From: Cladochytrium replicatum
Taxonomy: Eukaryota > Chytridiomycota > Chytridiomycetes > Cladochytriales > Cladochytriaceae
Length of the DNA: 64,000 nucleotides
Reading direction: 5' to 3'
NCBI GenBank assembly: GCA_025526935.1
Contig: JAHLKD010000070.1
Location: 242,029-306,028 of the forward strand
Below the pieces are notes generated by a model. That model did no database searches. It was not told where the DNA came from and worked only from the letters and a program-made list of their open reading frames with translations. This document shows, piece after piece, positions 20,572 through 64,000 of the stretch (positions are counted from its first letter, which is position 1; each line of letters opens with the position of its first letter). Both the position numbers and the translations under genes were made by a program.

Positions 20572-23500
20572 ATGGCTGCTCCGGAAGGATCCTCAGGGCT
20601 GGAAGCCTATGTGAAGGTTGAACTCTGCGCACCGATCTGTATGCGACTTGCTCACCTTTGGCCTCCATAGGGTACTAAAGCGTGGTTTGCGGATGATGAG
20701 GAAGGATGGATGCGTGGTGTTCTGCAATCGAAAACCATCACTGGCGACAACGTTCAGATGCTTTTCAAACTGGAGAAGCGCAACAAGGCATGCATGCTTG
20801 AACCCGACGTACTTCGATAGCTGATCATTTTCCACAGGAGGTTAAATTCGAATCGACTATCACTAAATTGGCCGCCAACAAGTTCAACGATCTCCCACCA
20901 CTTGATAACCCACCTCTTTTGGTGAGCTCGTGAGCTTATCTTTTGCGTAAATGGTTTTTTAACATACCTTATAGCAAGGAATCGATGACTTGGCAAACCT
21001 TTCATACCTCCACGAGCCTGCAGTTCTGCAGAACGTTCGCGAGCGTTACGCGCAGGAGCAGATCTACACATACTCGGGTATCGTGCTAATCGCCATGAAC
21101 CCGTTCCAACGGATGACGTCGCTTTACAGCCCCGACATCATGAGGTTTGCAGCACTCCTGGAGTACAAAGATCTGCCTTTGCTTATTGTGTCATTTCAGG
21201 GAGTACTCCGGAAAGCGACGTGGAGAGCTCGAGCCTCACTTGTTTGCTATCGCCGAAGAGGCTTACCGTAAGATGCTCACTGAGAACAAGAACCAGTCTA
21301 TCATTGTGTCCGGTGAGAGTGGTGCGGGCAAGACCCAGAGTGCGAAGTACATTATGCGATACTTTGCTACTGTGGACGACTTGGAAAAGAACACCAGAAA
21401 CGGTTCTGGCGCTGGCGCCGGAGGCACTGTCAGTGAGATTGAAGAGGCCGTGCTGTCTACCAACCCTATTATGGAGGTAATGATTGAAGTATGAGGATAT
21501 ATACGTGCAATGTCTGACAGTACTTACAGTCTTTCGGTAACTCGAAAACTACCCGTAACGACAACAGTTCTCGTTTCGGAAAGTACATCGAAATTTTGTT
21601 CCAAAAGGCGGATGGCGGTGCTCGTATTTGCGGTGCCAAGATGCGAACTTACCTCTTGGAGCGATCTCGATTGATCATGCAGCCCGCCACTGGTATGTTC
21701 ACTTCGCCAGAAAACAATGATACGACAATCTTACCATGTTTTGTCCAGAGCGTAACTACCACATTTTCTACCAGATGTGTGCCGCCGTTCCTGCCGCTGA
21801 GCGTAAGGAACTAGGCCTTGGTTCATGGGACTCTTTCCACTACCTCAACCAAGGTGGTTCTGGCACCATTCCCGGTGTTGACGACGCTGCCGAATTCGCC
21901 ATCACTCAGAAGGCACTTTCCACCATCGGCACGTCAGTTTCAACCCAATGGTACGTTGGAAACTGGCCGTTTTGATGTCAGCACGATCCTGACAATGGTG
22001 TGTAAAGGGATATTTTCAAGCTTTGCGCTGGTCTTCTCCACATTGGTAACATTAAGGTGACTGCTGTCCGGGACGAGGCTCAGATCGCCGACGACGACCC
22101 AGCTCTCCAGACTGCTACTCGTCTTCTGGGTGTCGACCGTGCCGAGTTCCGCAAATGGATTGTCAAGAAGCAGATTATCACCCGTAGCGAGAAGATCGTT
22201 ACCAGCGTGAACCTATACCAGGCTACGGTCGGCAAAGACTCCGTTGCCAAGTTCTTGTACAGCATGCTGTTCGACTGGTTGGTCAAGCTTATCAACTTGA
22301 ACCTAGCTCGTGATGAGGCCCTTGCAAACAGCTTCATTGGTGTTTTGGACATTTACGGGTATTTCTGACATTTTCATACCGGAAGACCAAAAGTTGACAG
22401 GTTTCTTCAGTTTTGAGCACTTCAAGAAGAACTCGTTCGAGCAGTTTTGTATTGTGAGTCCACTGTCCCGATTCTTCATAGCCCTTGCTTACGCTTCTCT
22501 CCTCTCCTTATAGAACTACGCCAACGAGAAGCTTCAACAGGAGTTCAACCGTCACGTTTTCAAGCTTGAGGTAAGATAAATAGAGTTTCTGTCGACAGTC
22601 GCTAAAATGCATTACCTTGCAGCAAGACGAATACGTCGCCGAGAAGATTGAATGGGTAAATAATCTGCCAAGATCTGTACTGAACAATCAATTGACGATT
22701 CCTTTCAGTCTTTCATTGACTTCGCGGACAACCAACCGTGCATTGACCTCATCGAAGGAAAGCTTGGAATCCTGTCGCTGTTGGATGAAGAATCTCGTCT
22801 CCCTTCCGGTGCTGACAAGTCGCTCATCACCAAGCTATACCAGAATTTCGCAGTCCCCACCCAGAAGTTCTTCGAGAAGCCCCGATTCGGCCAGAACGCC
22901 TTCACCATCAAGCACTACGCCAACGATGTCACCTACGACATCGATGGCTTCATTGAGAAGAACAAGGACACTGTCTCTGACGAGCAGCTTGAGGTTCTTG
23001 GCAAGAGTGACTTCGCTTTCCTCAAGGAAGTCATCACCATCGAGCCCGAGCCTGTTGTCGAGACTCTGGTATGGACATCTTTTTTTTGCTGCCTTAATGG
23101 GGATCTGACATTTACTCCTGACAGTCTCGTGCTCCCACTCGCTCTGGGCCTGGTGCCGGAGGTGCACTCAAGAAGCCCACTCTTGGTTCCATCTTCAAGA
23201 GCTCGCTTGTCAAGCTCATGGACACCATCCGCTCTACCGAAGCTCACTACATTCGTTGCATCAAGCCTAACCAGGCGAAGGCAGCGTTCCAATTCGAGCC
23301 CCAGATGGTGCTCTCTCAGTTGCGTGCTTGCGGTGTTTTGGAAACTATTCGCATCAGTTGTGCTGGCTACCCCTCTCGCTGGAGTTTCCAAGAGTTCGCC
23401 GACCGATACTACCTTCTCGTTAAGTCGAAGCAGTGGGTCGCTGACCCTAAGCTCCTCACCCAGACGGTTGTCAAGGAGACCATCAGCAACACCGACAAGT

Positions 23501-26157
23501 ACCAGCTCGGTCTCTCTAAGGTGTTCTTCCGCGCGGGTCAGCTCGCCGTTCTCGAGAAGCTCCGAACAGAGCGTCTGCGCTTCTGCGTTGTTCTTATCCA
23601 GAAGAATATGAGGAAATTCATTTACCAGAAGAGGTACAAGGCCGTCAGGGAAGCAGCAGTCAACACCCAGACCCTCGTTCGTGCGGCAATCGCTCGCAAG
23701 CGTTACACTGAGAAGAGGGAGACAATTGCGGCGATCAGGATTCAGTCTCAAGTTCGTCGCCACGTTGCGGAGAAGGAGTTCACTCGTTTGCGCGATGCCG
23801 CCCGCTTGGTCCAGAATGGTGAGTCTGTTCGGCTAGGAAAATTTCAATTGAAGCTAAATGTTCCTTTCAGCTTACCGCAAGGACGTTTCCCAGAAGAACT
23901 TGATCTCTCTCCGCCAGAACCGTGCTGCCGTCAAGATCCAGGCAAGGTGGCGCTGCTTCTCCGCTCGCAGGCAGTACCGCCAATCGGTGGCTCGTGTGTG
24001 CCTCATCCAGTCTGCTGTTCGTCGCAAGGTTGCGGTGAAGGAATACTCGTCGTTGAAGGCGGAATCCCGATCGATCGGAAAGTTGCAAGAGATCAACTAC
24101 CGCCTCGAAGGCAAGGTTGTTGAGCTTTCTCAGGGTATCGCTGCCAAGGAGCTTGAAAACAAGGCTCTTTTGGATCGTGTTGCACAGCTTGAGAGCCAGG
24201 CTGCATCATGGAAGGAGAAGTTCACCTCTGAGTCTACTAAGAACAAGACTACCACGGTCCAGGTCACCGAGGCATCTGCGGAGATGAAGAAGGAGCTCCA
24301 AACTCTCCAGGAGACCAAGGAGACTCTTCTCCGTGACCACGAGAGGATGGTTTCGCTCATCAAGAGGAAGGACGACGATATCGCAGCCCAAGAAGTGGAG
24401 ATCCTAAAGTTGAAGGAGGAGAACAAGAAGTTGAAGGAGGACTTGCTCAACGCTCCCAAGCAGGAGGATGTTGGCGTTGTCAACTCCCTCAAGAAGGAGG
24501 TGTCGTCGCTTCGCGACCAGCTCAGCAAAGTTGTCACAACCAAGTGGCAGAAGACCAGCCAGCACGAGCAGCAGCTCAATGGCTACGGTTTCAACCAGCC
24601 CGCATCGCCACCTACAAACACTGCGTCTACCCCGTCAAAGAGGTACTCTTTCGAGCCTCTTGCTCTGGGCAGGACTGGCCGCTCCAAGGAGGAGCCTTGG
24701 TCGCCCGAGAACACCCCAGTTGGTGCTTCAGAGCCCATTTCGGTAGAGTCCGAGGTCAGTCGCAAAGAATAGTACCTTTTGAAAGTCTGGTGACTGATAT
24801 TCATTACTGTAGCGCAAGCTTGGTTTGCTTGAGGAGAAGGCACTGGAAGACGAGATAATCGAGTCTCTCATCACCAACTTGCGTATCCCTCTCCCCAGCA
24901 CCCAGACTGTCGCCACAAAGAAGGAAATTTTCTTCCCAGCACACTTGATAGGTACCATCATGATGCAGATGATCCAGAGCGACCTCGCTTTCCGCATGCA
25001 GAACTTGCTCGGAAACGCAATGAAGGCCATTCAATCATTGACCATGGTCAGTATTTAACATTCCCGCTGGTCGAGAAATAAGCTTAACTTTGTGATTAGA
25101 AATTCGAGGACGACTACGTCTCTGCTTTCTGGCTTTCCAACTGCTACGAGTTGCTTTGTGTTGTGCGCACTGCCCAGGAGAAGGAAGCCCGCGAGCAGAG
25201 TCGCCGCAGGATGGCAAACGGCCGTCGCGGTTCCGACGACGCCTCCGAGGCGGAGCGTGCTCTTGAGAAGGTCAGATCAGATCTCGACTACCTTCTCGTT
25301 GAGATCTACCACGGATGGATCAAGGAGCTCAAGAAGCGTTTGAACAACATGATTGTGCCCGCTGTCATCGAGAACCAGTCTCTTCCTGGATACATTTGCA
25401 AGCAGTCAGGCGGTCTTTGGGGCAAGTGGGGCAAGTCGGCGTCGACCTCTCAGTTCACTATCGAGCAGTTGCTCAACTTCCTCAGCAAGTTGTCTAAGAC
25501 CATGCGCTGCTACTACATGGAGGACTCGATGACTCGCCAGATTCTGACCGAGTTGCTCCGTGTGATTGGTGTTTCTGCGTTCAACCACTTGCTCATGCGC
25601 AAGAACTTCTGCACATGGAAGCGTGGTGTGCAGATCCAGTACAACGTCTCCCGTCTCGAGGAATGGTGCACCAGCCATGGCATTGCCGAAGGTTCGTCAC
25701 ATCGATTCTTCTTTTTTGAAAAGTTTATTGACGTCAACTCCTTACAGCAACGCTGCACCTCCAACAGTTGTTGCAGGCCGCCAAGTTGCTTACGCTTAAC
25801 AAGACATCCCCGCAAGATATCGAGACCATCTTCGATGTCTGCTTCCTCCTCAACCCGACGCAGATCAAGAAGCTGCTATCGCTCTACTACGCTGCCGACT
25901 TCGATTCACCGGTAAGGCAGAATATCTTGTCTCTCCCTGACTTAGTCTGACCAATCAATGTCCAGTTGTCACCTGAGCTCTTGAAGATTGTTGCTTCAAG
26001 GGCGATGCTGAACGAGAAGTCGGATGTGCTCTTGCTCGACTTGGACCAGGGACCCGACTTCTCGAAGCCGAACCCTCGGACAGTTGACCAAGTGGAGAAG
26101 TTCGTTCCGGCTTGGATGAACCTGCCGAACATCTCTGCTGCTGTTCAAACCGCTTAA
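20572..26157 (+). CDS. MYO5: Class V myosin heavy chain
   Basis: Eighteen exons (20572-20616, 20671-20787, 20838-20921, 20975-21144, 21200-21476, 21530-21692, 21749-21950, 22008-22358, 22411-22453, 22514-22570, 22623-22655, 22709-23068, 23125-23818, 23871-24754, 24813-25046, 25100-25691, 25748-25911, 25966-26157) give 1,553 residues, the size of yeast Myo2. Order: SH3-like N-terminus ([15 protein letters not shown]), motor with P-loop [19 protein letters not shown] (about 177), switch [12 protein letters not shown], relay region [19 protein letters not shown], actin-binding [10 protein letters not shown] and converter; six IQ motifs from about residue 786; a coiled coil; and a C-terminal DIL cargo-binding domain ([20 protein letters not shown] to [20 protein letters not shown]). 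It carries vesicles and organelles along actin in polarized growth. The second intron (20788-20837) has a GC-AG boundary. Confidence 0.96.
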
Positions 26158-43894: not shown

Positions 43895-46800
43895 ATGTCG
43901 AATGGCTCGGTGGGTCGATGGATTGCATGTTATACTGCATGATGCTTACACGATTTGCAGAGAGCACCTCAAACATGGGGACGTACATGGTCTCGAGAGA
44001 TTTCGTATGTTCCCCAAGACCCGATTCCTCTTGATTCTCCGCTGGCAACCTTCAACAAGCTACATGCCAAGATGCTCGGTGTTGACCAAGGTAAGCGTAA
44101 TCCTTTCGCGCCAAACGCCATCCTCCTGAGCTTCATCTAGGTGCGTCGAAACCGCCACTTCATCCGGTTGGATCAAAATTGGAGGGAAAGCTGCTTGCTG
44201 GTGGAGTCGCCTCTCAGATGTCACGCAAAGCCAGTACACAGCCTTCTCGAGACGTTCAGAAAGACAGGGGAATAAAGCGCGACCGTGAGTCGTTTCGGAA
44301 TGCCTTGGTGTATATGTTGATGTAAGTTGTTAAATTTGAAATCTGTCACACTACATTATTAAGGAAATGTGCGTTAGGCAAAATCCGTCCTCCTCAAGTC
44401 GCCCGGCAACTTCAGACCAAAGTGAAGCGGACAACGCCGATGCAGAAGCGGTGAAACCTCAGCAAGACAAAGATGTCATGGTAATAATCATACAATCAAA
44501 CATGGGACAATAGTTTTAATCACAAATCACAGCAACGCTACTACTACTACATTGCAAATGGAATTGATACAAATCGTGTGGCAGAAATGGAGGACAGGTG
44601 GCTCGAAAATGTTTTGAGGTTGCTTCCAGCAGTTTTGAAGTCAAGGCACCACCGAATCGTTCAAGTTCTTTCTGGTGAAATGCGTGATGACTACCATATG
44701 AGTGTAAAGAAAGCAATTGGTTCGTGATACAATTTCCTTGTCTCCTGTATTTACATCCCAGAGCAGTGGACTTTGTCTTGAAGGATCCCAGAGGGAAAAA
44801 CACTGATGGAGAGCACACAATAGAGTCAGCAGAAAGTTTTGTCAGGTAGTCATAAACTGAGAAATTCTTTCGTTTCTTATGTTCTTGTGCTTCAGGATAC
44901 GGTCCTCAACTCCTACATGGCAATTATTTTTTAGACATGCATATGATCATCTCCAGCGAAATCTGCTCCTCATCAACCCAACTGTTGTCGGAATATTCAA
45001 CCTATGGCACAAATTTTCAGATATACGATTGTTTGATGCTGATTCATTGCTCTTGCGATCAGGACCATTTGAGCTTCGTACCTTTAAATTATTGATGGCT
45101 CAAAAGTTTGAGAAAGCACACGAGCGCTTAATGACTACGTTAGTACCACCAAAAGGCATGATATACTTTCTGAAAATGTCCATACTTCCAGATGGTATCC
45201 TGCTATGTTGAACATTTTTTATCAGGGGAGCAAACGCAACGAGTGGACTTCAGTGCAACCTGAAAAAATGGGTTCTCTTTTCCAGATGGTTTCATTTATT
45301 ATGGGGAACCAGCTTCGCTATATTGTTGAACAGTCCATGTCTGATTATATCAAGCTGTTTGAAGCAAATCCTGGGAAGAACTATACCAATTTAAAGGGAT
45401 TAGAGAATGCTAAGCCAGTCAACTTTCTGGTGCGGCTCATGCTTGATGAAACAAAAGTGAAGTTCGAACCTTCATTGCAAGATATTCAGACAACAATTGA
45501 AGCTGTTTTTGACCAACTACTTGTTGCAGCCGATAAAGTTCCCAAGATTGAGACACAGCTGTTTTCCAATGGAACGTCTTCTGCTGCAAACAATCGAGCA
45601 AATATTGGTGTTGTAAAACCTGAGCAACGAATTAGGGTTGCCTTTGAAGAAACTTTTCCAGTTCTTGTACATAGGACTCGTGAAGGATTAAGGAAAAGCA
45701 TTAATCAGATGTTGCAACACCCTTCAATCTACTTGCAGGAATATGAAAAACATCGTCCTCTAATATCAAAAAGTATTGATGGAGACGTTACTGAATTCCT
45801 CAAAATTGATCATCCACAAGAAAAGCTGATGGAGGTTAGTGTGCATAATAATGTTGACACTCATGAACTAAAGAGCGTCAATCCTTAACAGGAGGTTAAG
45901 AAGTACCGACAACAAGCTACAAAAATGATTCTTTGTGCATATCCATTCATCGTCCACTTTCCTCTTGTCGAACTACATTGCGATGAATTTCTCCAAGATT
46001 TGTCAGGACGAGCAATATCATTAGCTGGAAGGATTATGGATAAGATGGCCTTGCAAAGAAAAGTTCATAGTGAAGGGTAACCACCTGATAATTAAGCGTG
46101 TTTTACACTCAAGTATCAAAATTAGAATCATCAAGTCTTTCGAAGAAATTGCTGCTAAAATTGTTACAACTCCTAATACCGTTGAAGAAATGGTTGAACT
46201 GCAAAAGTTTGTCGAGCGGGCAAGAAATGCTGACATGCAAACCCTTGAGGAACAAGTCGAAGAATCCAAAAAGAGGTACTAAAATATGCGAGATTTGGTT
46301 TTCAAATGCTTACAGACTTATAAGGCTAAATTTTATGATAACCTATTCAGAATTGAAAAAAGAAGACTATGAGTTGAACACTACATTATTCACTTGGCTG
46401 CAGCATATACAGCCAATATTTGTAGAGAGTGATACAATTTTGCAGAATTCACGTGAATCAAACCAGGAAGATATAAAGTCAAGACGCGAGAAAATCTCAT
46501 TAGAGCTTGATGGATATGCAAAGCAGCTTGAAGAATATCATACATTTGGCGATTATGCTGACATAAGTAGATATCTCAAAACAGCACAAAAATTGCAAGC
46601 ACGCCTTGATTCAGTGCGTGAAAGGATTCAGCAGTTCAATTATGAAGAAGATTTACTTGGATGGAGTGCAACAACCTTCCCACTTCTTGAAGAAACTTCA
46701 CAGGCTCTTGCACCATTTCTTTCACTCTATCAGACTTCAGTTGACTTCCAGCGATGCTATCACACGTGGATGTCAGGTTCATTTCTCAAACTTGATCCTG

Positions 46801-49800
46801 AAATGGTTGAAAATGAAGTTGGCAATATGTGGCGGAACATTTACAAACTATGCATTACATTTAATCAAGATCCATGTCCACTAGAAATTGCTGAAATTAC
46901 GAAGCTGCAGATAGACCAGTTCAAGGTCCACCTGCCCTTAATATCGGTGCTTTGCAATCCTGGCCTTAGAGAAAGACATTGGAGAGACATTTCTCAACAT
47001 GTTGGGTTCAGATTACAGCCAGATGAGTCAACAAGCTTAACAGCCATGCTGGAACGAAATTTGTCAGAGTATATGGTGAAGCTTGAAGAAATTAGTGGAC
47101 TGGCGACAAAAGAGTACTCCTTTGAAAAAGCTCTCCAAAAAATGTACACAGAATGGCAAGAAATGGCATTCTCGACTGTTCCATACCGAGATACTGGGAC
47201 ACATATTCTAGCCTCTGTCGAGGAAATTCAAACGTTATTCGATGACCATATTGTTAAAACACAAACCATGAGAGGATCACCATTTATCAAGGCATTTGAA
47301 GAGGAAACACATGCATGGGAGAGCCAGTTAATAACTATGCAGGAAATTTTGGACGAGTGGCTGAAGGTCCAGTCTACATGGTTATATCTAGAACCCATTT
47401 TCAGCTCTGAAGATATCATGCGACAAATGCCAACTGAAGGGAAACGATTTGTTCAAGTTAATAAGACATGGAGAGATATCATGGACTTTTGCTCAGCCAA
47501 AAAGTTGGTGCTACAGGTCTGTGCAATGCCAGATTTATTGTTACGCCTAAAAGAGAGCAACGGAGAACTAGAACTCATCCAAAAAGGATTGAATCATTAC
47601 TTGGAGATTAAGAGACTCTACTTCCCAAGATTTTTCTTCTTGTCGAACGATGAAATGCTTGAAATTTTGGCTGAAACAAGAGACCCACTTCGAGTGCAGC
47701 CACATCTCAAGAAGTGCTTTGAAGGTGTTAACAGCCTTGAATTTGATGCAAATCTTGATATCCTGGGAATGTACAGTGCACAAAAAGAGTATGTCAAGTT
47801 CGTAAATACTGTTTCAACTGCACAGGCAGCCGGTGCAGTGGAGAAGTGGCTTTTGGATGTTGAAAAATCTATGATTGCAAGCATGAAAGATGTTGTGGCA
47901 AGAGCATATCATGGTTATGTAGTTTCACCGCGAGATCGATGGGTTCTAGAATGGCCGGGCCAGGTCGTCTTAACCGTAAGTCAGATATATTGGACAAATG
48001 AGGTCGAAGCAGTTCTTCTGGAAGGTGGGAATAATGGTCTCAAAAAATATGTAGACCTAAGTACAGAGAGGCTTTCAAAAATTGTTGAGCTTGTGCGTGG
48101 TAATCTCAGCAAACTCAATCGCATCAGTTTAGAAGCATTAGTTGTTGTAAGTAATCTATTATATGTTTTTACTGCATTTTAAATGTTAATCATCAGATTG
48201 ATGTTCACGCAAGAGATGTTATTTCAAAACTCGAAGAAGATAAAACAAAAAGCATGAATGACTTCTCCTGGTTGAGTCAACTCAGATACTACTTTGAGAC
48301 AGAATTTGGTGTAATAGTTAAAATGATTAATTCAGTTCAGAAATATGGATACGAGTATTTAGGGAACACACCTCGTCTTGTAATTACTCCACTAACAGAC
48401 AGATGTTACCGAACACTACTTGGTGCCTTGCAGCTTAATCTTGGTGGTGCCCCAGAAGGACCAGCTGGTACTGGTAAAACAGAAACTACTAAAGACTTAG
48501 CAAAAGCGCTTGCGATGTTTTGTGTTGTATATAATTGCTCAGATGGATTAGACTATATTGCAATGGGAAAATTTTTTAAGGGACTTGCGGCAGCTGGAGC
48601 ATGGGCATGCTTCGATGAGTTTAATCGTATTGACCTTGAAGTATTATCTGTGGTAGCCCAGCAAATTCTGACAATTCAGCGGGCAAAAGCTGCAAAATTA
48701 GATACGTTTGTTTTCGAGGGGACAGAATTACAAATGAATCCAATCTGTAGTGTTTTTATCACTATGAATCCTGGTTATGCTGGAAGAAGTGAGCTTCCCG
48801 ATAATTTGAAGGCATTATTCCGGTAAGTAATTTCTGAAAGGTGCTGGAGTAATATTAATGAATTTTCTCCTTTATATAGCCCAGTTGCTATGATGGTATG
48901 AGCATATTCAAATTGAAAAAGTGATATTCTTAAATCTTGTTAGGTTCCAGATTACACATTAATTGCAGAGATTTCATTGTACTCATTTGGATTTGTTGAA
49001 GCAAGAAGCTTGTCAGTGAAAATTACTGCAACATACAGGTTGTGTTCAGAGCAGCTCTCATCTCAGGATCATTATGACTATGGTATGCGAGCTGTTAAGT
49101 CAGTGCTTTCAGCTGCTGGAGCTCTGAAACTCAAGTACCCCAATGAGAATGAAAATATTCTTGTATTGCGCTCTTTGGTTGATGTGAATCTTCCTAAATT
49201 CTTATCGCATGATATCCCATTATTCAAGGGGATTACAGCCGATTTATTCCCAGGGGTTCATTTGCCAGTTCCTGATTATCAGCTTCTGAACAAAAATCTT
49301 GATAGTGTGTGTGAAAGAATGAATGTGCAGGTGATACCAGCTTTCCAGGAGAAAGTTTTGCAAGTGTACGAAATGATGCTTGTTCGACATGGATTTATGC
49401 TTGTTGGTGACCCATTTTCTGCAAAAACAACATCATATCAAGTTTTACAAAATGCTCTGACTGAAATTAACAAAACAAACACACAAGAGGAGAGAGTGCA
49501 GACAGCTGTACTAAATCCAAAATCTATCACCATGGGACAACTATATGGACAATTTGATCCAGTTACACATGAGTGGTCAGATGGGGTACTTGCGGAAGCA
49601 TTTAGAAGTTTTGCCTCGTCTACTTTACCTGATCGAAAATGGATCATATTCGATGGTCCAGTTGATGCGATTTGGATTGAGAATATGAACACTGTCTTGG
49701 ATGATAACAAAAAGCTTTGTTTAAACAGTGGAGAGATTATTCAATTATCTTCAACTATGAGCATGATTTTTGAAGTTGGAGACTTGGCTGTTGCATCTCC

Positions 49801-52800
49801 AGGTATATAGTACAAGAAAACACAACTCAAAATGTAAATATTTAACACTACCAATTAGCCACAGTAAGTAGATGTGGAATGATCTATATGGAACCTGGAA
49901 GGATTGGCTGGAGAGATACCTTATTCATATCATGGCTGAAATTAAGCTCTTTGGATGAAGGTCAAAAGAAACTAATAATTCAGATGGCCCATTGGGTCAT
50001 TGATGCTGTACTTAATTTTGTACGAAAAGAGTGTTTGGAGCTTTCACCCACATCCAATAGTAATCTTATCACTTCATTTTTGAATCTATTCGAAAGTCTG
50101 TTTGATGACTTTGTGAATGATAGTAGTAAAGATCATGATATAAGTTCAAAAATTGTTCAAGGTATTTTTATTTTCTCGGTAATATGGTCTCTAGGATCCT
50201 CTATTAATGATTCTGGGCGAGTTAAATTTAATTCATTTTTCCGCTCACTATTGAATGGTGGAGATCCAGCAATTCTTCCCCCTGAAGGTTTCTTACTTGA
50301 AGCTCCAATACCAGAAACCTCTTTGGTGTATGATTATGTATTTGACAGAAAAGATGGAGGGAAGTGGGTTTTGTGGATAGAGACAATTCCAACTACTTTT
50401 ACAATTCCCGCAAAAGCAAAGTACAGTGACATTATGGTTCAGACAATTGATACTGTAAGATACTCATTCCTTCTGAAACTCCTTGTAAGACATGGCAAGC
50501 ACATTCTTTTTGTTGGCACAACAGGCACTGGGAAGTCTATGTATATTACAGATACCATGATGAATGGATTGCCAAGTGATAAATTTATCCCCATGTTTAT
50601 AACTTTTTCGGCCCAAACGAGTGCAAATCAGACACAAGATATGATTGAGTCACGATTAGATAAACGGCGGAAAGGTGTTTTTGGCCCACCTCTTGGGAAA
50701 AAGAGTTTGATTTTTGTAGATGATCTCAATATGCCTGCGAGAGAGCAGTATGGCGCTCAACCTCCAATTGAACTTTTGCGTCAATGGATGGACCATGGAG
50801 GCTGGTATAATCTTGCAGAAAATCAAATACAAGAGTTTGTTGATGTCCAGTTTATTGGAGCAATGGGCCCACCAGGAGGAGGTCGAAACCCTATTACTCC
50901 CCGGGTAACTGCAAACAAACTTTTTGATACAGATGACTGACGGTTGTCACTTAGTTTCTTCGCCACTTTAATACAATTACTATTGGTGCTTTTGATGACA
51001 CAACTTTGAGTAAAATTTTTGAGACAATCTTAGACTGGCACTTCATATCAAGTCGGTTTGAAAAAGAGGTTATTTCATTGTCTAAAGCAGTTGTTGCAGC
51101 AACACGAGAAATTTACCGAACTGCTGCAGAAAACTTACTTCCAACTCCAGCAAAGTCACACTATCTCTTTAATCTTCGTGACTTTGCAAGAGTTATTCAG
51201 GGGCTTCTCCTTTCGAAACCTGACAGCTTTAAAGACACAAATAAAATGTTGAGGTTATGGATCCACGAAGTTCACAGAGTGTTTTATGACAGACTGATAG
51301 ATGATTCAGATAGAAAATGGTTCTTCAATCAATGTCAATCTTCAATCAAAAATTACTTCAATTCTGACATGAGCATCATATGTGCTGCATATGATAATGA
51401 CCATGATCATAATGTTACTGAAGATAATCTCAGGAGTCTAATGTTTAGTAGTTTTCTGTCACCACCAAATACTTGTATATATGATGAGATTTCTGATCTT
51501 GGTGAACTTACCGTGCTCATGGATAAACACTTGGGTGAATTCAACCTCATGTCAAAGAAACCAATGGACCTAGTCATGTTTCGGTTTGCTATTGAACATC
51601 TCTCTAGAATAAATCGTGTTCTAATGCAACCCAGAGGGAATATGCTGCTTGTAGGGGTTGGTGGAAGTGGACGGCAGAGTCTCACTCGGCTCGCAGCACA
51701 TGTTGTTGATTATGAATTACTTCAAATAGAAATTTCAAGAAATTACAGCATTGCTAACTGGCATGATGATATTAAAAAAATTTTGAAGAAAGCAGGTGGA
51801 CAAGGCAAGCAAACAGTTTTTTTATTCAGTGACACACAAATTCAAGATGAAGCATTTTTGGAAGATATTAATAACATTCTTAACTCCGGAGATGTCCCCA
51901 ATATCTGGGCTGCAGATGAAAAACAAGAGCTATTTGAGCTAGTTAGACCAGATGCAAGAGTTGCTGGAAAAGCAAGTGATGGATCACCAACTGCTCTTTT
52001 CAATTTCTTTGTAGATAGGTGCAGGGAGAATCTTCATGTGGTTCTTTGCATGAGTCCAGTCGGAGATGCATTCAGAAACCGTCTACGAAAATTTCCTTCC
52101 CTGGTGAATTGCTGCACAATTGACTGGTTCCAAGAATGGCCTGCAGATGCTCTGGAAATGGTGGCAACTAAATTTTTAAGTGAAATCGAGATGCCTGACA
52201 CAGTCCGGACCGATGCTGTTTACATGTGTAAACATTTTCATGACCAAACTAGGAAACAATCTGAGAAATTTAAGAGTGCCTTAAGGAGGCACAATTACGT
52301 CACACCTACATCTTACCTTGAATTAATTCGAACTTTTCAAAACCTTTTAGGAAAAAAGCGCACATTTTTAAACCAGCTTAAGTTTAGGTATCTAAATGGT
52401 CTTGAAAAGCTTGCCTATGCACAAGGTGCTGTCTCAAAAATGCAGATTGATTTGGGGGAGCTACAGCCACAACTCATAAAGACAAAAGGAGAAACAGATA
52501 TAATTATGGTTCAAATTGAGAAGGAATCCAAAGATGTGAATGAGACAAGGAAAGTAGTTCAAGCAGACGAAGAGATTGCATCAGGAAAAGCTGCTGAGGC
52601 GAAGGCAATGAAGGATGAATGTGAAGGGCAACTTGCTGAAGCTATTCCTGTCCTGAATGCTGCACTTGCAGCATTAGATACCTTGAAACCAGCTGATATA
52701 ACTGTATTGAAGTCAATGAAGAGTCCTCCTCAAGGGGTGAAGCTGGTAATGGAGGCTGTATGTATCATGAAAGATGTAAAACCAGTCAAAATACCAGATC

Positions 52801-55800
52801 CAGCTGGGTCGGGAAAAAAAGTAGAGGATTACTGGGGTCCATCCAAGCAGGTTCTTTCAGATATCAAGTTTCTTGATAGTTTGAAAACATATGACAGAGA
52901 CAATATATCTGTCAACATCATGAAAATGATAAGGTCAAAATATATGGATAATCCAGAGTTTGACCCAGATAAGATCAAAAATGCTTCTTCTGCTGCTGAA
53001 GGTTTATGTCGCTGGGTGCGTGCAATGGAAAGCTATGACAGAGTTGCCAAAATTGTTGCACCAAAGCGAGAAGCTTTAGCGAAGGCTGATGCAGAATTAG
53101 CTCAAACAATGACATCTTTAAATCAAAAGCGCGCCACTCTTAAGGCTGTAGAGGACCGCATGAATACATTAGAAGAAAATTTTAAAGCCATGGTTGCCAA
53201 AAAAGAAATGCTAGAAAAGCAAGTCGACTCAGTTTCAAAGCAACTGATAAGAGCGGAAAAGCTGATAGGGAGTCTCGGTGATGAAAAGGAACGATGGACA
53301 AACTGTGCAGCAGATTTAGAAGAAAGAATTGTTGCTGCAACCGGCGATGTATTAGTTTCTTCAGGGATAGTTGCTTATCTTGGTGCATTTACAAAAGCGT
53401 TCAGGGATGAATGTATTGTAGAATGGACAAACTTATGTAAACAGAGGAATATTCCTTGTTCTGATGATGTACGGCTAGCAACAGTTCTAGGTGATCCTGT
53501 TAAGATTCGTGCCTGGATTTTAGCTGGCCTCCCCAATGATTCCTTTTCAATTGATAATGGAATTGTAATATCAAATGCAAGGCGGTGGCCACTATTAATA
53601 GATCCACAGGGACAGGCTAATAGATGGATTAAAAACATGGAAAAGTCCAAATCACTCCAAGTTATCAAGCTAACGGACTCTGACTATCTACGAACTTTAG
53701 AGAATGCAGTCCAGTTTGGAACACCAGTGCTTCTTGAAAATATTGGAGAAGAAATAGACCCTGTTCTTGAACCTCTTCTGCTTAAACAAACTTTCAAACA
53801 AAGTGGAGTGAATTGCATTAGAATTGGGGACTCAACTGTGGAGTATTCACCAGAGTTCCGTTTTTATATAACAACAAAGATGAGAAATCCTCACTATTTA
53901 CCTGAACTCTCTATTAAAGTAACTTTATTGAACTTTATGATTACTCCCGAAGGGTTAGAAGATCAGTTACTGGGTATAGTGATTGCCAAAGAACGTCCAG
54001 AGCTTGAGGAAATGAAGAATCAACTTTTGCTGCAATCAGCAGAAAATAAGAAGCAACTGCAGGAAATCGAAGATAAGATTCTTGAAGTTCTTTCTTCCTC
54101 TGAAGGTAACATTCTTGAAGATGAAACTGCCATTCAAATACTATCATCTTCGAAAGTGTTAGCAAAATCAATCTCTGAAAAACAAGCTATTGCTGAGAAA
54201 ACTGAGCAAAACATTGACGAGATTCGTGTTGGATATAAGCCAATTGCTGTTTACTCCTCTGTTCTGTTTTTCTGTATAGCAGACCTCGCTAATATTGAGC
54301 CGATGTATCAGTATTCTCTCACTTGGTTCATTAATCTCTTTATTGGATCAATTGAAAACAGTGAGAAGTCGTCAGATCTACAAATCCGCCTTGAAAAACT
54401 CCAGTCCCACTTTAAGTTATCTCTTTACTCAAATATATGTCGATCGTTGTTTGAAAAAGATAAACTTGTTTTTACTCTCCTCTTATGTGTTGCCATTTTA
54501 AAGGGTCAAAATTTGGTTGATTTGGAGGAGTGGAGATTTCTTCTGACTGGAGGAATTGGATTAGATGATAACTTTAGACCAAATCCCGATAAAACTTGGA
54601 TAAGCGAAAAGTCTTGGGCTGAATTTTGCAGACTCTCTAGTTTGCCAGTGTTCAATGGATTTTCATCAAGTTTTATTGTTGGTGTGGATATTTGGAAACA
54701 GATATTTAACAATAATAGCCCTCACTTGATGAAACTTCCAGGTACGGTCATTTGCTTTTTGGACCATTAAACTAAATATGTACTCTATTAGCTCCTTGGG
54801 AAGACTCTCTCAACCCATTCCAGAAGCTTCTTGTTATGCGATGCCTCCGACCAGATAAAATGACAGCAAGTGTGACAAAGTATATCATTGAGATAATGGG
54901 GAAAGAGTTTGTTGAGCCACCCCCATTTGACCTTGCAAGCAGTTATAGTGATTCAAGTCCAACTAGTCCTCTTATATTTGTCCTCTCTCCTGGTGCTGAC
55001 CCTATGACTGCGTTACTAAGATTTGCAGAAGATAGAAAAATGGGTGCAAGTCGCTTGAATTCAATATCTCTTGGACAAGGACAAGGACCAATTGCAGCAA
55101 AAATGATCAATCAGGCACTTCAGGATGGATCTTGGATTGTTCTTCAAAACTGTCATCTTGCAATAAGTTGGATGCCAACACTGGAAAAAATTTGTGAAGA
55201 AATATCACTTGAATCAACACAGCCTTCATTTCGCCTGTGGCTAACATCTTATCCATCTGATAAGTTTCCAGTAACACTTTTACAAAATGGCGTGAAAATA
55301 ACAAATGAGCCCCCAAAAGGGTTAAAAGCAAACCTAACCCAGTTGTATCTTAGTGACCCTATTAATGACAAGACCTTTTATGAGGGATGTAAATCTCAAA
55401 AGAATTTTGAAAAGCTCTTGTTTGCATTGTGCATGTTTCATGGTGTAGTGCAAGAAAGGAGATCTTTTGGACCTATTGGATGGAATATTCCTTATGAGTT
55501 CAATGACACTGACTTGAGAATCTCAGCAAGGCAACTCCGAAACTTTTTGAATGACTATGAGGAAGTGCCATTTGAAGCCATCTCATATATGACAGGTAAA
55601 CTGTTACCCAAATATTTAGCCTGTATATAAACTTTTAATAGGCCAATGTAATTATGGGGGAAGAGTTACGGATGATAAAGATAGACGTGCATTGGTGTCT
55701 CTTTTATCTTTGTACTACAATCCAAGTGTAATTAACAGTCTAAACTATTCATTTTCAGCTAGTGGCAATTATTATGTACCTGCACATACTGATCATCAAC

Positions 55801-56912: not shown

Positions 56913-58200
56913 TATAGAAGCCCATACTCAGTGGAATTTGAAATTATTGCATGAATTGTCAAGTAGAATATGTTAGGATATACACTGATTTAGCGAGGGT
57001 TTTTGTTACTGTGGGATGCTACTTTGTGGTCTGTGTTCAATATGTAATTTGAGCATCAAAAGAGATCCCTCAATGTCCCTTTTATGTGTTGTGTGCCTGT
57101 GTAATTCTCCGTATTATTAATAATATGTCAAAATAGGAGTTTTGAGATAATAATGTCTTCAATGTAATCTCTTCACTTTGCTACTTTTATCCATATGTTT
57201 GCTTAATGTTGAGAATTTGTTTCATTGTCTCTTTTGTGTAGTTTTTAGCCATATATGTTGAGCTTCTATCTGTTGGAGATTTTTGTAAGCTCCCGAACTT
57301 TTTAGGAGTTCGGGCATTGCTGATGTTCTAGTAACATTAATCCCTGCAAAAAGGTAGATAGCAATGTAGAAGCAAATGGAGGTATTTTTGATGGTGAATT
57401 AGCGTCATGGATGCAGGGTATACTCCACTACATGGTTGAGTAGAGTCAATCCTGAGACTCATACACGCTATTCAACCATCGAGCTTTTTACAGATACAGT
57501 TTTATTGCTAAACTTCTCTTCCAAATAAGTAAACATTACTCTTGATTACTAAATCGTGCCTGAATCAGACCATGGATTGTTTGTTCCTAATTGAGAATAA
57601 TGATACTCTTGAATTGATATGAAGCGTAACATAAGCAATATTTCCACATGTGGTAACATCATAGAAGACATGTAAATATGTGTTTCTCACCATCATAAAT
57701 ACTTATTATTCACCCAAGTAAATAATTGCTATCAACTTAACAATAATGTCATAAACTTATATCAATGTGACGCTAAATAAGTTTATGGGTTGATTCAGTG
57801 ATTGGCCAGCTAGATAGCTGGTTCAATCCTGCAAGTTTGAGGGACAGGTTGATTTCAACGTCACTGTCTACAAATGCAAACCTCACGATCCATAAGGTTA
57901 TGAGCTCGCTGATGCTTGCTCACAGCCTCATAAACAAGATAATACCTTTTGCATTGCTTCAAACATCCCTGCGCCTAAGCAAAGGAGATCGCAACCTTAA
58001 CAAAAAATGAGCGGACAGAGAAAAGTGAGTCAGGATTGCTTTGAGACTTTGCATCCCGCATTGAGAGAGCTCTTGAAGTCTCCAGTCTATCTGTTATGAG
58101 TTTGTTTTGTGTATAGTTGTTAAGTGACGGTAGTAATAGAGTCCTGTAATGTACATAATCCAACAGACACTCCCAGTCCTTTAAGAACGTAAATGTTGTT
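56913..58200. other. AT-rich intergenic region with small inverted repeats
   Basis: No gene. It holds the dynein 3' flank, a perfect 8-bp hairpin at 57292-57314, and an imperfect inverted pair (GGTTGAGTAG / CTATTCAACC) at about 57433-57477. Confidence 0.5.
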
Positions 58201-58214
58201 GACTGAGTTTTAAA

Positions 58215-58840
58215 TTAAAGACAACACTTTGTGTCTCTGTGGACAGTGTGTTATTTACAAACACTATCGTAAAGATGAACAAAACTCCACTGAACAATCA
58301 CAAGTTGATAGTGGAACAGCCCAAATCCGCTTCTGTATATGGTTCATATCGTCAGACTCCCATCCACCACTTGTTGCGTCCTTTGCCAACCCAGTCCTGA
58401 TGAACCGATCGATGTAGTCATTTGAAACCATGAAATCCCTGGCTAAACCTGTCTTCCAAGGTTTCCAATCCACCTCAGGGAGTGTGATGGATGACAGATG
58501 CCGGATGTATGCCCTCCAAACCTTAGCCACTCAGAAAGATATGCATCCACTAATGCTCTGAACATGCGATAGATAGTGGCAGACGTACTTAGCGAGTTGT
58601 TGTGCCGTATCCAGTTTCCGAGCAAAATGTGCACCCTAAGAAGAGTAGGGCCACTCCGAGCACTGCTACTTAAAGTTGATGTTCGGCTTGAGCTTCGTCA
58701 GATTCAACGAATATGAACTCATTTCGGGAAAGGACTTCGTAGTTAACACTGAAAAACTTGACTGATGGTGGAAGAGATGGCAATTTAAGGTCATGAATAA
58801 CCTCATTGATCTTATGCATCTGGAAGCAGATGCTAAGGTT
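58215..58840 (-). pseudogene. Truncated, frameshifted 3' copy of the 560-residue coiled-coil ORF
   Basis: About 600 bp is nearly identical to 59061-59665, including ~70 bp beyond the stop codon (CACTTTGTGTCT...GGACAGTGTG). Translated pieces match the C-terminus of the intact ORF: HILLGNWIRHNNSLSTSATI, SSITLPEVDWKPWKTGLA, SGGWESDDMNHIQK. Single-base gaps shift the frame (for example the last one, CCACTATC against CCACCTATC), so it cannot make the same protein. Similarity ends at GGAAGCAGAT (about 58832), next to the GC-rich TIR element. Confidence 0.85.
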
Positions 58841-58996
58841 CGGCGGGTCCGGGTCGGGTCCGGGTTTCAGTGGCGACCCGCACCAAACCCTTTGGGTCGG
58901 GTCGTGTTTGTCTGGGGACCCGCCGGGTCACTGACGGGACAAAGGGAATACCCGGACCCGAAGTGGTTGAAACCCGTACCCGACCCTGACCCGCCG
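58841..58996. mobile_element. Short GC-rich element with ~30-bp terminal inverted repeats (MITE-like)
   Basis: The left end CGGCGGGTCCGGGTCGGGTC and the reverse complement of the right end CGGCGGGTCAGGGTCGGGTA agree at about 27 of 30 positions. The ~156-bp insert is rich in GGGTC/GACCC words and has no coding frame of interest. It lies exactly where the truncated ORF copy loses similarity. Target-site duplication is unclear. Confidence 0.7.
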
Positions 58997-59132
58997 GGTT
59001 TTTGCTGCCCAGGAGAGGATTGATTGAATTTTGAGTTAGACCACGGATATTTACATGAACACTTTGTGTCTGTGTGGACAGTGTGTATTTTAGAAACACT
59101 ATTGTAAAAAGAAACAAAACTCCACTGAGCAA

Positions 59133-60815
59133 TCACAAGTTGATAGGTGGAACAGCCCAAATCAGCTTCTGTATCTGGTTCATATCGTCAGAGTCCCATC
59201 CACCACTGGTTACGTCCTTCGCCAACCCAGTCCTGATGAACCGATCAATGTCGTCATTTGAAAGCATGAAATCCTTGGCTAAACCTGTCTTCCAAGGTTT
59301 CCAATCCACCTCAGGGAGCGTTATGGACGAAAGATGCCCGATGTATGCCGTCCAGAACCTTAGCCACTCAGAAGGATATGCATCCACTAATGCCCTGAAC
59401 ATGCGATAGATAGTGGCAGACGTACTTAGCGAATTATTGTGCCGTATCCAGTTTCCGAGCAAAATGTGCACCCTAAGAAGAGTAAGGCTGCTCCGAGAAC
59501 TGCTACTTGAAGTTGATATTCGGCTTGAGCGGTCGTCTGATTCAACAAATATGGGCCGTAAAAACTCATTTCGGGAGAGGACTTCGTAGTTTACATTGAC
59601 GTACTTGATTGCTGGTGGAAGAGACGGCAATTTAAGGTCATAAATAACCTCATTGATCTTATGCATCTGGAAGCAGATACCCTGGATGACCTCTTTCACC
59701 AAAAGGATAGCCGTACGACGATGCTGCTGCAGGCTAAGCAATGCAAGGGAACTCGTTGGAGAACTGGTTCGATGTACCTTCGGAATTCTACCAATCCCCT
59801 TGATAGCCGACGATATGCTTATTAGGCCGCCTGTTGATGTTGGCGCCGCAGGTGCTGCAGCTTCTGAATGACCAGCCTGTCGTTTCAGAGCAGCAAGCTC
59901 TCCCTCCAGGGCGGTCTCACGTGATTTCCATTGTGAAATCTCCTGGGAAGTTGCCTGCTTCTCCCTTTCCATTGCAGCGGTGATCTCCCTGAATCTTGCT
60001 AGCTCTTCGTGCTCGCCGTGCTGAATCAATGCACCCGCCCTGCCCAATTCATCAATGAGAGCCTTCTCTCGCACTTCTGCTGCGATGCGGGTCCTTCTCT
60101 CGTTCATTGCAGTCTCTTCAAGATCTTTTGTCATGTTCAACAGTCGTTCTGACTGTTTGAGGACCTGTTTTGTCCTTTCACGGTCCTCATCTGCTCGTTT
60201 GATGGTCGCTTGGAACTCATCAACCTTTGCAGTGACGGGCATTCCTCTGTAAATGCCGTACTTGTGTCCCTGCCGCCTGTAAAAGTCCAGAAATGTTGTT
60301 TCCTTCTGAAAGGAAGAGCTTTTCAAGCACTCCATACGATAGGCGTTTGCTGCTGTTATGAACTCCGTTCGTCCACTGCATTCATCGTGAATTTCGTTCA
60401 GGGCTTGACGAACTAGCTTGCTGTCAGAGTTAAGTCGGTCGATCAACCCTTGAAGAACAAATCTTGGGCCGCATTCATCACGATTTGTTTGACAGTTGCT
60501 GATGAAGGCCTCCGAGTCGTAGCTGTGGCCGCTCGCTTTGAATTTTCGATACCAAAGTCGTATGTCTGAAGCAGGACAGAGTCCGTCGATGAGCAAATAG
60601 TCAGCATCCCCTTTAGTACCACGTCGCGCCGGTTTCTTTGAAGGAGCTGTCGATTTGACATCTGTCGATTTGACATCAAGGCCAACTTCTTCTGCTTCCA
60701 CTTCAGAACCCGATGCCAGAGATGTTTCAGGTGCAGTCACAGGTTCTGCACTTGATTCTCTTTCAGATGATGGTCTGGATTGTTTTAACGCTCGCTTCTT
60801 TGTAGTTCGAGGCAT
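59133..60815 (-). CDS. 560-residue coiled-coil protein of unknown family, probably transposon-associated
   Basis: Single-exon frame. N-terminus is basic and Ser/Glu-rich (MPRTTKKRALKQSRPSSERE) with a possible nuclear signal. Residues about 70-190 form a compact conserved-looking domain (DADYLLIDGLCPASDIRLWY, DECGPRFVLQGLIDRLNS, TTFLDFYRRQGHKYGIYRGM). Residues about 190-310 are a charged coiled coil. Then a Pro/Ser linker and a C-terminal domain (QMHKINEVIYDLKLPSLPPA; HILLGNWIRHNNSLSTSATI; SSITLPEVDWKPWKTGLA). No zinc finger or transposase signature is seen. It is divergent from the hAT transposase and separated from it by the inverted repeat array. A second, broken copy lies just beyond its 3' end. 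This suggests an accessory gene of a mobile element, but a cellular multicopy gene is also possible. Low-complexity codon use is absent, so it looks translated. Confidence 0.6.
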   Translation of the reverse strand: MPRTTKKRALKQSRPSSERESSAEPVTAPETSLASGSEVEAEEVGLDVKSTDVKSTAPSKKPARRGTKGDADYLLIDGLCPASDIRLWYRKFKASGHSYDSEAFISNCQTNRDECGPRFVLQGLIDRLNSDSKLVRQALNEIHDECSGRTEFITAANAYRMECLKSSSFQKETTFLDFYRRQGHKYGIYRGMPVTAKVDEFQATIKRADEDRERTKQVLKQSERLLNMTKDLEETAMNERRTRIAAEVREKALIDELGRAGALIQHGEHEELARFREITAAMEREKQATSQEISQWKSRETALEGELAALKRQAGHSEAAAPAAPTSTGGLISISSAIKGIGRIPKVHRTSSPTSSLALLSLQQHRRTAILLVKEVIQGICFQMHKINEVIYDLKLPSLPPAIKYVNVNYEVLSRNEFLRPIFVESDDRSSRISTSSSSSRSSLTLLRVHILLGNWIRHNNSLSTSATIYRMFRALVDAYPSEWLRFWTAYIGHLSSITLPEVDWKPWKTGLAKDFMLSNDDIDRFIRTGLAKDVTSGGWDSDDMNQIQKLIWAVPPINL

Positions 60816-60949
60816 GGTGTTTGTACTGTTTGTCGTGGGAAGATACTGGCCCGGTGTTCTTAGCCGGAATGTTACAGGAATGTATGCTATAATACTTCCC
60901 TGACACTATAGTTTTCTACCCGATCTGAAAATAATAATAAGCTAGGGAA

Positions 60950-62035
60950 GAAACTGGCTAGTAACATTGATAGAGAGGATTCTGTCCGGGTGGACAGAAA
61001 TCTTATTGCTAGTAAAATTGATAGAGAGGTTAGCTGTACTTGATAGAGATCACTGAAGTACCGTCAATGAGTTGAGAAAGTGTCCGGGTGGACAGAATCT
61101 TATTGCTAGTAACATTAATAGAGAGGTTAGCTGTACCTGATAGAAATTACTGAAGTACCGTCAATGAGTTGAGAAAGTGTCCGGGGGGACAGAATCCTAT
61201 TCTACCCAGACAGACACAGTGACACTCAGTCTCCCAGATTTCTGTCCACCCGGACACTTTCTCAACTCATTGACGGTACTTCAGTAATCTCTATCAGGTA
61301 CAGCTAACCTCTCTACAAATACTACTAGCAATAGGATTCTGTCCACCCGGACACTTTCTCAACTCATTGACGGTACTTCAGTGATCTCTACCCAATACAA
61401 CTAACCTCTCTATCAATGTTACTAGCAATACGATTCTGTCCACCCGGACACTTTCTCAACTCATTGACGTACTTCAGTGATCTCTACCCAATACAACTAA
61501 CCTCTCTATCAATGTTACTAGCAATAAGATTCTGTCCACCCGGACACTTTCTTAACTCATTGACGGTACTTGAGTGATCTCTATCAAGTACAACTAACAT
61601 CTCTATCAATGTTACTAGCAATAAAATTATGTCCACCCGGACACTTTCTCAACTCATTGACAGTACTTCAGTGATCTCTATCAAGTACAGCTAACCTCTC
61701 TATCAATGTTACTAGCAATAAGATTCTGTCCACCCGGACACTTTCTTAACTCATTGACGGTACTTGAGTGATCTCTATCAAGTACAAACTAACATCTCTA
61801 TCAATGTTACTAGCAATAAGATTCTGTCCACCCGGACACTTTCTCAACTCATTGACGTACTTCAGTTATCTCTACCCAATACAGCTAACCTCTCTATCAA
61901 TGTTACTAGCAATAGGATTCTGTCCACCCGGACACTTTCTCAACTCATTGACGTACTTCAGTTATCTCTACCCAGTACAACTAACCTCTATCAATGTTAC
62001 TAGCAATACGATTCTGTCCACCCGGACACTTTCCA
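60950..62035. repeat. Inverted array of ~97-bp tandem repeats
   Basis: Each unit holds the box CTGTCCACCCGGACAC, then TTTCTCAACTCATTGACGGT, ACTTCAGTGATCTCTATC, and ATCAATGTTACTAGCAATA. The box occurs in reverse orientation near 60982, 61081 and 61179. It occurs in forward orientation near 61242, 61339, 61436, 61532, 61629, 61726, 61824, 61920 and 62014. Spacing is 94-99 bp. The orientation switches around 61200-61240, where a unique link (CAGACAGACACAGTGACACT) sits. The box core GTCC-N4-GGAC is itself an inverted repeat, so it is a good candidate protein-binding site. Confidence 0.9.
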
Positions 62036-62153
62036 AGAAGTCACAACGGAAGTTCTGTAACAAACAATTTCTACCACGACAGACCTCGAGAGCTGTGCTT
62101 TCTGTGCACCTGGACATTAGAGTCGGTAACGTTCCAGCCACACCACAGCAAAA

Positions 62154-64000
62154 ATGGACGCCGCCTTTGTTAAACCAAAGCGTAAGGCAGCGTCCGACGC
62201 AAGCCAAAGACTAGTGGACAGTCATCCGCTTGACACACGGAAGCGAAGTCTGCCAGCCCCCCAAATTTCAGAGGCGTCCAGCGAGGGGAACATCATGCAG
62301 GACAAACGCAGACGTGTATCAGGACACTGTGGCAACAACAGCGCTCGAGAGCCGAGCTCCACATCTTCTTCCAATGACTCCAGCGAGTTGGGCCCGGCTT
62401 CTCAGCATGCACCACAGCTTCCTGCCGACGTTAGTTTTGCTGACTCTTCAGTGCGACAGGAGCCTGCAGCTGGATCAGTTCAACCATCAATGCTTTCATC
62501 AGACGCAGATGTTGATAGCATGTCGGACTGTAGAGGTAGTCGAGGCGGCATAGCGAAGGATTACTATAAGGTTGATAATGGTCTGAGAACATGTTTGGTT
62601 GCGAAATGCAAGTGGAGCCAGAAGGTCGATAAGACGGGATCAACAAAAAACTTCCTCCGGCATCTGAAAAACCACCATGGAAGTATTGCCAGGTCGCTTG
62701 GACTGTTGGACATCGTCCCCAAGGGACAACAGACATTGAATTTCGGCTCGCAGGAGAAGGAGCAAAACTTTGTGTTCAATCCAGACGTAGCGTGGCGGTC
62801 GATTTTGGACTGGATTGCTGCAGACAATCAGGCTTTTACTGTTGTGGAGAACGAGTTCTTTGTCAGCATGCTGAAGACTTTTCAGCCAAACTATACACCA
62901 AAGACGGCAAAAGCAGTGAAGCAAAAGGAGATGGATCTTTACGATAGGCAGAAGGAGCTCATTAAAGGTCTGATTGTTGGTTCGCCTTCAAAAGTATCAA
63001 TAACAGCTGACTGTTGGACATCGAAGAACCAGATTTCTTTTCTTGGAATTACTGCCCACTTCATCACGAAAGAATGGGAGCCGCAGGACTTGCTGCTGCA
63101 GATGATTCCGATGGTTGGAAAGCATGAAGGCGTCGCCATGGCTAGTCAGCTTGTCAAGTGTCTGGATGAATTTGGCATGCTATCGGGTGAACGCTTATTG
63201 TGCATTACAACCGACAACGGTTCAAACAACTTTACCATGAGTGCTAAGCTGGAGACGCTCTTGGAAGATAGGGATATTGCGTGGTCTGCAGAAACTCAAC
63301 ACATGCGGTGTATGGCACACATTATCAATCTTGCAGCAAAGGATTTTATCGATACATTCGCGCCCGCAGGGGACACAGTCGCAAATGGACGATAACTCCG
63401 GCGTTAATGTCATAAACCTTCTTCGACGGCTAGTCCAGAGGATCCGGTCTTCCCAAAACGACGAAGCTCATTTATTGATTCGTGCCGATTTCGTGAAACT
63501 GGTTCCTCTATTACCAATTATCGATGTGACAACTCGCTGGAATAGCACGTTCTATATGGTCAAACGAGCCTTACAGCTACGAGAGGCAATGGACAAAATA
63601 TGCTGGATTGAAGATTCTTTGAAAGATTGGTCAATAAATCCAAAGCAATGGGAGGTCCTACAGAAGATCCGGGATGGTTTGAGTGTTTTCGAGGTTATAT
63701 CCAAGGCAATCGAAGGGTCTAGATATCCAACACTCCGCTTGTTATTCCATTTTACAACGATCTTATCGATCAACGGGAGGACCTAGAGGATGCAGAATTA
63801 GAATGAAACTTCACCAAAGCATTTCGAAATGCACTAGATAAGCTGAGAATATATTACTCAAATCGCTAAGAGCCCCATGTTTAGCAGTTGCTACGGTACT
63901 CGATCCTCGTTTTAAGGATCATATTATCGATTTTCAAAGGCTTGGGAGAAAGATGTAGGAAGGGATCAGGTCACCCTAGTGCGGAAAGTCTGGGAGGAAT
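62154..64000 (+). pseudogene. hAT-superfamily transposase, frameshifted and cut by the window edge
   Basis: The first frame (62154-63395, 413 residues) has a disordered N-terminus and a BED-type zinc finger (TCLVAKCKWSQKVDKTGSTK then NFLRHLKNHHG). It continues with the hAT catalytic-core blocks SITADCWTSKNQISFLGITA, ERLLCITTDNGSNN and HMRCMAHIINLAAKDFI. It then stops. The protein continues in another frame from about 63385 (NVINLLRRLVQRIRSSQN; IDVTTRWNSTFYMVKRALQL), shifts again near 63730, has in-frame stops, and near 63900 reads LAVATVLDPRFKDHI, the usual hAT block before the dimerization domain. At least two frameshifts and a stop make it a pseudogene as written. The C-terminal dimerization domain lies beyond the window. 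Confidence 0.85.

Follow-up and report, generated by a model that had tools for sequence, protein, structure and literature searches.

The last 6 kb of a 64,000-nucleotide stretch of the Cladochytrium replicatum genome (positions 242029–306028 of contig C70, JAHLKD010000070.1; hereafter the window) are best read, with moderate confidence, as a rearranged copy of a hAT transposon that carries two genes and was active recently; its second gene, open reading frame 2 (ORF2), would encode a helper or regulator, and the head-to-head layout of this copy would stem from array recombination or misassembly. The window ends where the contig does (C70 is 306028 bases long), within an assembly of 50.5 Mb in 198 contigs. 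A sequence-only reading of positions 58200–64000 had proposed a hAT-like transposase frame on the plus strand and a large 560-residue frame on the minus strand, with a repeat array that reverses once between them. All of these are present: the transposase gene starts at 62154, ORF2 occupies 59133–60815, and tandem repeat comparison detected the 97-bp array at 60983–61201 and, reversed, at 61240–62033. Three units directed towards ORF2 lie at 60957–61201 (minus strand) and nine directed towards the transposase gene at 61240–62033 (plus strand). The array turns at 61202–61239, and the two boxes that face each other there have start points 71 bp apart. The same reading had counted about 12 GTCC-N4-GGAC boxes, and there are exactly 12 in 58200–64000 and none in the remaining 58.2 kb of the window, whereas 500 base shuffles of the segment averaged 0.05 boxes and never held more than 1.

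The transposase and the 560-residue ORF2 belong to one hAT element. Its terminal inverted repeats (TIRs) are short (15 bp, TAAGGWTCGGCGGGT), its ends are rich in CGGGT, and both ends start with TAAGG, which fits YARNG, the consensus of hAT short TIRs. Among the 30 transposase loci fetched, 25 showed the left end, TAAGGATCGGCGGGT, at one identical base; the right end, which is TAAGGTTCGGCGGGT in reverse complement, showed the same precision in all 30 fetched ORF2 loci. Genome-wide, 305 left and 354 right ends were detected with ≤3 mismatches, and reversed control words gave none. Pairing was confined to the listed exact ends, for left ends as far as contig C59 and for right ends as far as C58; these formed 45 adjacent left/right pairs ≤20 kb apart, and 26 of these carried a perfect 8-bp duplication, compared to 1 of 1406 cross-pair controls. 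The 40-base flanks of 38 pairs yielded 21 perfect duplications and one further with a single mismatch; among the remaining seven pairs, five were perfect (C3, C10, C34, C43, and C58) and two were not (C53 and C56). Elements on C109 and C63 added two perfect duplications, for a total of 28. A full-length ORF2 match was found inside 13 of these 28 duplication-flanked elements among the matches listed (those of C3 and C34 with one in-frame stop), and 12 of the 13 also held a same-strand transposase match, although its frame was not open throughout in every case. Hence the co-occurrence of both genes within shared TIRs and 8-bp target-site duplications (TSDs), which the sequence-only reading had put forward as a check, was observed at multiple loci, and this recurrence at many loci identifies a single hAT-type element. 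A 2560-bp copy at C10:598701 has ORF2 and no transposase match among those listed. An exact right end was detected ≤600 bp downstream of 32 of the 41 scored ORF2 copies on contigs C1–C58.

The element has been active recently. The genome includes at least 101 copies of the transposase N-terminal part (101 of 756 candidates scored) and at least 78 copies of ORF2 with 96–100% identity (78 of 1100 first-look candidates scored); identity reached 98–100% in 70 of the 78 scored ORF2 copies, and 55 had no in-frame stop. In the canonical order, an array precedes the transposase, which is followed by a reversed array plus three forward units and then ORF2, with both genes on the same strand. Seven TSD-flanked full copies measured 6719 to 7595 bp; about nine 97-bp units lie upstream of the transposase, and 7–16 reversed units, then three forward units, upstream of ORF2. 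The units beside ORF2 in canonical copies point at a transposase located on the other strand. The 7595-bp C109 copy displays this organization in full: its left end holds 14 CGGGT/ACCCG motifs in 270 bp, nine forward units have their boxes at 212–979, the transposase starts at 1117 and is followed by 16 reversed and three forward units, ORF2 starts at 5613, and the right end holds 15 motifs in ~180 bp (shuffle mean 0.8; the motif averaged <1 in shuffled C109 ends). A 32-base array word occurred 2823 times in the genome with ≤2 mismatches, and its reversed control not once. Neighboring units were spaced by 97 bp in 314 of 538 intervals and by 93–99 bp in the others, and the seven full copies differed in length by whole 97-bp steps to within six bases, indicating that the arrays vary in copy number.

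The transposase is clearly of the hAT type, based on Pfam, a Hermes-like fold, and DDE and CxxH residues. An intact copy elsewhere in the genome (L036) encodes 811 residues and matched the dimerization domain Dimer_Tnp_hAT (PF05699; E = 2.2e-20, 72.7 bits, cut-off 21.4), while the hAT-like RNase-H family PF14372 scored 23.6 bits, under its cut-off of 27. The AlphaFold model (mean predicted local distance difference test, pLDDT, of 71) matched Hermes in Foldseek (E = 1e-18, template modeling score by target 0.71), and all 12 matches with E ≤ 0.001 were Hermes. D286, D354, C386, and H389 were invariant across 18 aligned sequences and E730 nearly so; we take D286, D354, and E730 to be the DDE triad and C386/H389 the CxxH motif, with roles as in Hermes. 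The 120 relatives listed, of 131 proteins retrieved, shared 22–37% identity over the aligned part, and the closest named ones among them were from Rhizophagus. No Pfam BED match to this transposase was obtained at E ≤ 1; relatives bearing PF02892 align with it at the conserved C152 and H170. The window gene (62154–64000, plus strand), truncated by the contig end, had been described as a relic, which we reject: relative to L036 it has 1 mismatch in its first 1233 bases, followed by 11 single-base indels and 3 mismatches at 63387–64000. Since the frame breaks, from 63387 on, are confined to the last 614 bases of the contig, they are probably consensus errors in unpolished sequence.

ORF2 has a basic N-terminus and a coiled coil at residues ~194–316, and this predicted coiled coil suggests that the protein is probably multimeric. 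A search of the whole ORF2 against ~5.8 billion proteins returned no relative at E ≤ 0.01, from the 7996 candidates sharing most words that were scored. Because coiled-coil words may have filled this candidate set, a second search was limited to residues 352–560, and it returned no relative at E ≤ 10 in the same collection, the N-terminal part not having been searched alone. Fungi are represented in this database, since the transposase returned its 131 proteins there, many of them fungal. ORF2 matched no Pfam family above cut-off, with no DNA-binding domain recognized, nothing better than E = 0.86 in the PDB, and no viral contig in IMG/VR that could be confirmed. Two copies, on C127 and C113, have a 595-codon open frame with an extra DVKST-type repeat near the N-terminus. 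Changes common to ≥2 of 8 older ORF2 copies comprised 14 silent and 17 replacement changes (normalized ratio 0.48, p = 0.03). Taken singly, the copy L063 displayed 22 silent and 22 replacement changes (p = 0.002), and the ORF2 relic of the window 17 and 22 (p = 0.03). These counts hint at a mild excess of silent changes in the older copies.

Under the reading we favor, the transposase would bind the CGGGT-rich ends and cut and paste the element, the CGGGT/ACCCG clusters at both ends being candidate binding sites judging from their sequence, while the 97-bp arrays may control both genes from upstream and perhaps offer further sites for protein binding. ORF2, basic and with a coiled coil, would then have a helper or regulatory function exerted via the arrays or the ends, and our best guess, by analogy, is an element-encoded role like that of TNPA of En/Spm. 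A hint of a connection between arrays and ends may come from the 8-mer ACCCGGAC, which is found in the usual box, is absent from variant boxes, and occurs 4 times in the two element ends. Words common to the array and the ends exceeded shuffles for 7-mers and 8-mers, the observed values being reached by 0 and 6 of 1000 shuffles, respectively. A more ambitious version, which we regard as tentative, is that this hAT lineage has turned two-component: ORF2 would be a new family working with the transposase, whether in end pairing, array binding, or silencing relief, with the 97-bp arrays as its sites, i.e., a TNPA-like system that arose independently within the hAT superfamily.

Several observations weigh against the favored reading. 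Perfect duplications were missing in 19 of the 45 end pairs. No relative of ORF2 was found, hence its function is one we infer, and its predicted fold is of low confidence (mean pLDDT 47), being confident only for the coiled coil. The selection signal is weak and uneven, as the other six of the 8 older copies were not significant singly, and 30 young copies provide too few changes to judge selection. Shared 9-mers between array and ends were not above shuffles (155 of 1000 reach the observed value), and the box was barely better conserved than the remainder of the unit (0.972 vs 0.950 across 60 distinct units). So small a difference does not support the box as a specially conserved unit core, and it weakens a simple box-binding story. 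Finally, ORF2 is damaged in some TSD-flanked copies (C23:465000, C18:283906, and C1:1018245).

The damaged copies also bear on an alternative, namely that ORF2 is a passenger gene picked up by a hAT element and has no part in transposition, which we consider possible but doubtful. The C23 and C18 copies have perfect duplications and lack the first part of ORF2, the remainder being 100% identical to an intact copy, and the C1 copy has an internal ORF2 deletion (98.6–99.2% identity). Damage of this kind speaks for a passenger, as does the lack of resemblance to anything in the protein, Pfam, PDB, and viral-contig searches, and hAT elements generally manage with one protein. The damage may, however, postdate insertion. 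The C1 deletion junction has a single occurrence in the genome, that of C23 also occurs at C8:9400, and that of C18 at C24:3102, with a right flank common to both places in each of the latter two cases. None of the three junctions checked against the genome thus represents a deleted form at two independent insertions, which is why the ORF2 deletions may postdate insertion; a claim that ORF2 is dispensable in cis was withdrawn on the same grounds. The two-place junctions look as if they stemmed from segments that were duplicated or misassembled, and not from fresh insertions. Also arguing against a passenger are the 55 scored copies free of in-frame stops, the mild excess of silent changes, and the fact that the same array units precede ORF2 and transposase genes. 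In addition, no case of ORF2 lying outside the element came to light, though an exact right end was missing near 9 of the 41 copies considered above.

Alternatively, ORF2 could be a host-directed regulator (anti-silencing or repressor) that works on the arrays instead of helping in the cutting complex. The position of the arrays, upstream of both genes and not only at the ends, would fit such a role, but no domain or relative of ORF2 was found to support it, and we consider it rather unlikely.

The layout of the window copy itself had led the sequence-only reading to propose divergent genes around the array. This holds for the window copy, in which the transposase is directed away from ORF2, and not for the family: within 8 kb upstream of the 78 ORF2 copies, the nearest transposase match listed was on the same strand in 53 cases and on the opposite one in 4; the other 21 copies had none listed, and 3 of these (C91, C75, and C132) begin <700 bp from a contig start. 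Divergence as the norm was rejected on these counts, which also make it very unlikely that the natural unit is a divergent pair driven by a single array as bidirectional promoter, or a transposase cassette able to invert. One locus on C31 (L062) does share the ORF2(−)/array/transposase(+) layout without a left end in between, but it has two right ends with unmatched flanks, and the window copy is cut off where the contig ends. The notion of two unrelated elements, adjacent or nested, is extremely improbable and was rejected, because 12 copies have both genes inside their outer duplications and no internal ends were seen between the genes in the C31 locus or the window, even though nested copies appear to exist (C13:411549–422929).

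No left end was found in the window copy. Its right end (58834–59003, minus strand) includes the TIR, which reads TAAGGTTCGGCGGGT in the orientation of the window, and a CGGGT/ACCCG cluster, with the right-end motif at 58834–58850, and adjoins an older ORF2 fragment at 58223–58831 (minus strand), made up of the 3′ part of the gene plus trailer and 90–94% identical, piecewise, to 59058–59678. Hence this copy apparently inserted into a relative, which served as its target. The 8 bases beside the right end, GCAGATGC (58826–58833), are presumed to be one half of the target duplication, and the partner half would be past the contig end. The head-to-head layout probably results from recombination between the inverted arrays of two copies, or from misassembly at the contig end.

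Other loci display comparable anomalies. Displaced target-duplication halves were observed for L124 (C40) with L131 (C27), L117 with L032 (both C6), L015 with L060 (C101), and L041 (C14) with L017/L049 (C58), which suggests that copies exchanged flanks or that contigs were misjoined, as either would produce them. The matching flanks of the C101 pair are ~17 kb apart on opposite strands, and the C101 row, which mixes two loci, was left out of the element measurements. Matching 8-bp flanks across contigs (L050 on C89 with L012 on C159, and L052 on C169 with L009 on C89) suggest contigs broken inside, or exchanged through, an element copy. On C13, an element with duplication TTAGTTAC (L028, L019) appears to hold a second copy, with a right end within array sequence. 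Elsewhere in the window, a dynein heavy chain gene lies in several pieces at 46092–54767 (N-terminal region and motor domains) and a myosin motor at 23122–24120; of five other window frames scanned with Pfam, 3 matched, two to dynein heavy chain and one to myosin. An Rfam search of 57500–64000 gave no match.

In the well-studied hAT elements, one protein does the work. Here a young hAT family with many copies retains a second gene, for which no relative was found, and has variable arrays before both genes, so that it can be asked directly whether a hAT element is able to acquire another protein for transposition or control. The inverted arrays of this element may also drive rearrangement in the genome. 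No description of a two-gene hAT element was found in the accessible parts of the open-access literature, which was the scope of this comparison, Repbase and subscription papers lying outside it.

The element resembles other members of the hAT superfamily (Hermes, Ac, Tol2, and Herves) in its 8-bp duplications, short TIR starting with TAAGG, dimerization domain, Hermes-matching fold, and short repeated motifs near its ends, and differs from them in having a second gene for which no relative was found and long 97-bp arrays that are also located mid-element. According to the available portions of the respective reports, Hermes engages subterminal repeats through BED domains (PMC10368747), and the left end of Herves, a hAT element of Anopheles, contains three repeats of 100 bp (PMC3143072). 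The latter are similar in length and in location near the left end to the units described here, which start ~210 bp from the end; yet Herves, as far as that source goes, combines its three repeats with one transposase gene, whereas here about nine left units are accompanied by a long reversed array between two genes. A second, different protein is carried by another eukaryotic DNA transposon, KolobokP (PMC9587614, from the section available), a likeness to the present element, but one that belongs to the Kolobok lineage and involves a recognizable homing endonuclease, unlike ORF2, in which no domain was recognized. For En/Spm, two element-encoded proteins are needed, one of which binds subterminal repeats (PMC2613891, in the accessible excerpt). 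The presence of two element-encoded proteins is common to both systems, and repeat binding by the second protein is the feature of En/Spm on which the analogy with ORF2 would draw; En/Spm is nonetheless a CACTA element, whose transposase is unrelated and which has CACTA ends and duplications of 3 bp, as opposed to the TAAGG ends and 8-bp duplications observed here. Lastly, Galileo belongs to another transposase superfamily (P), its repeats are part of the TIRs, and the consulted part of its description mentions no second gene, but it too has tandem repeats within the inverted ends of a copy, and ectopic recombination between Galileo copies gave rise to inversions (PMC4168063), a parallel to the exchange between inverted arrays that may have shaped the window copy.

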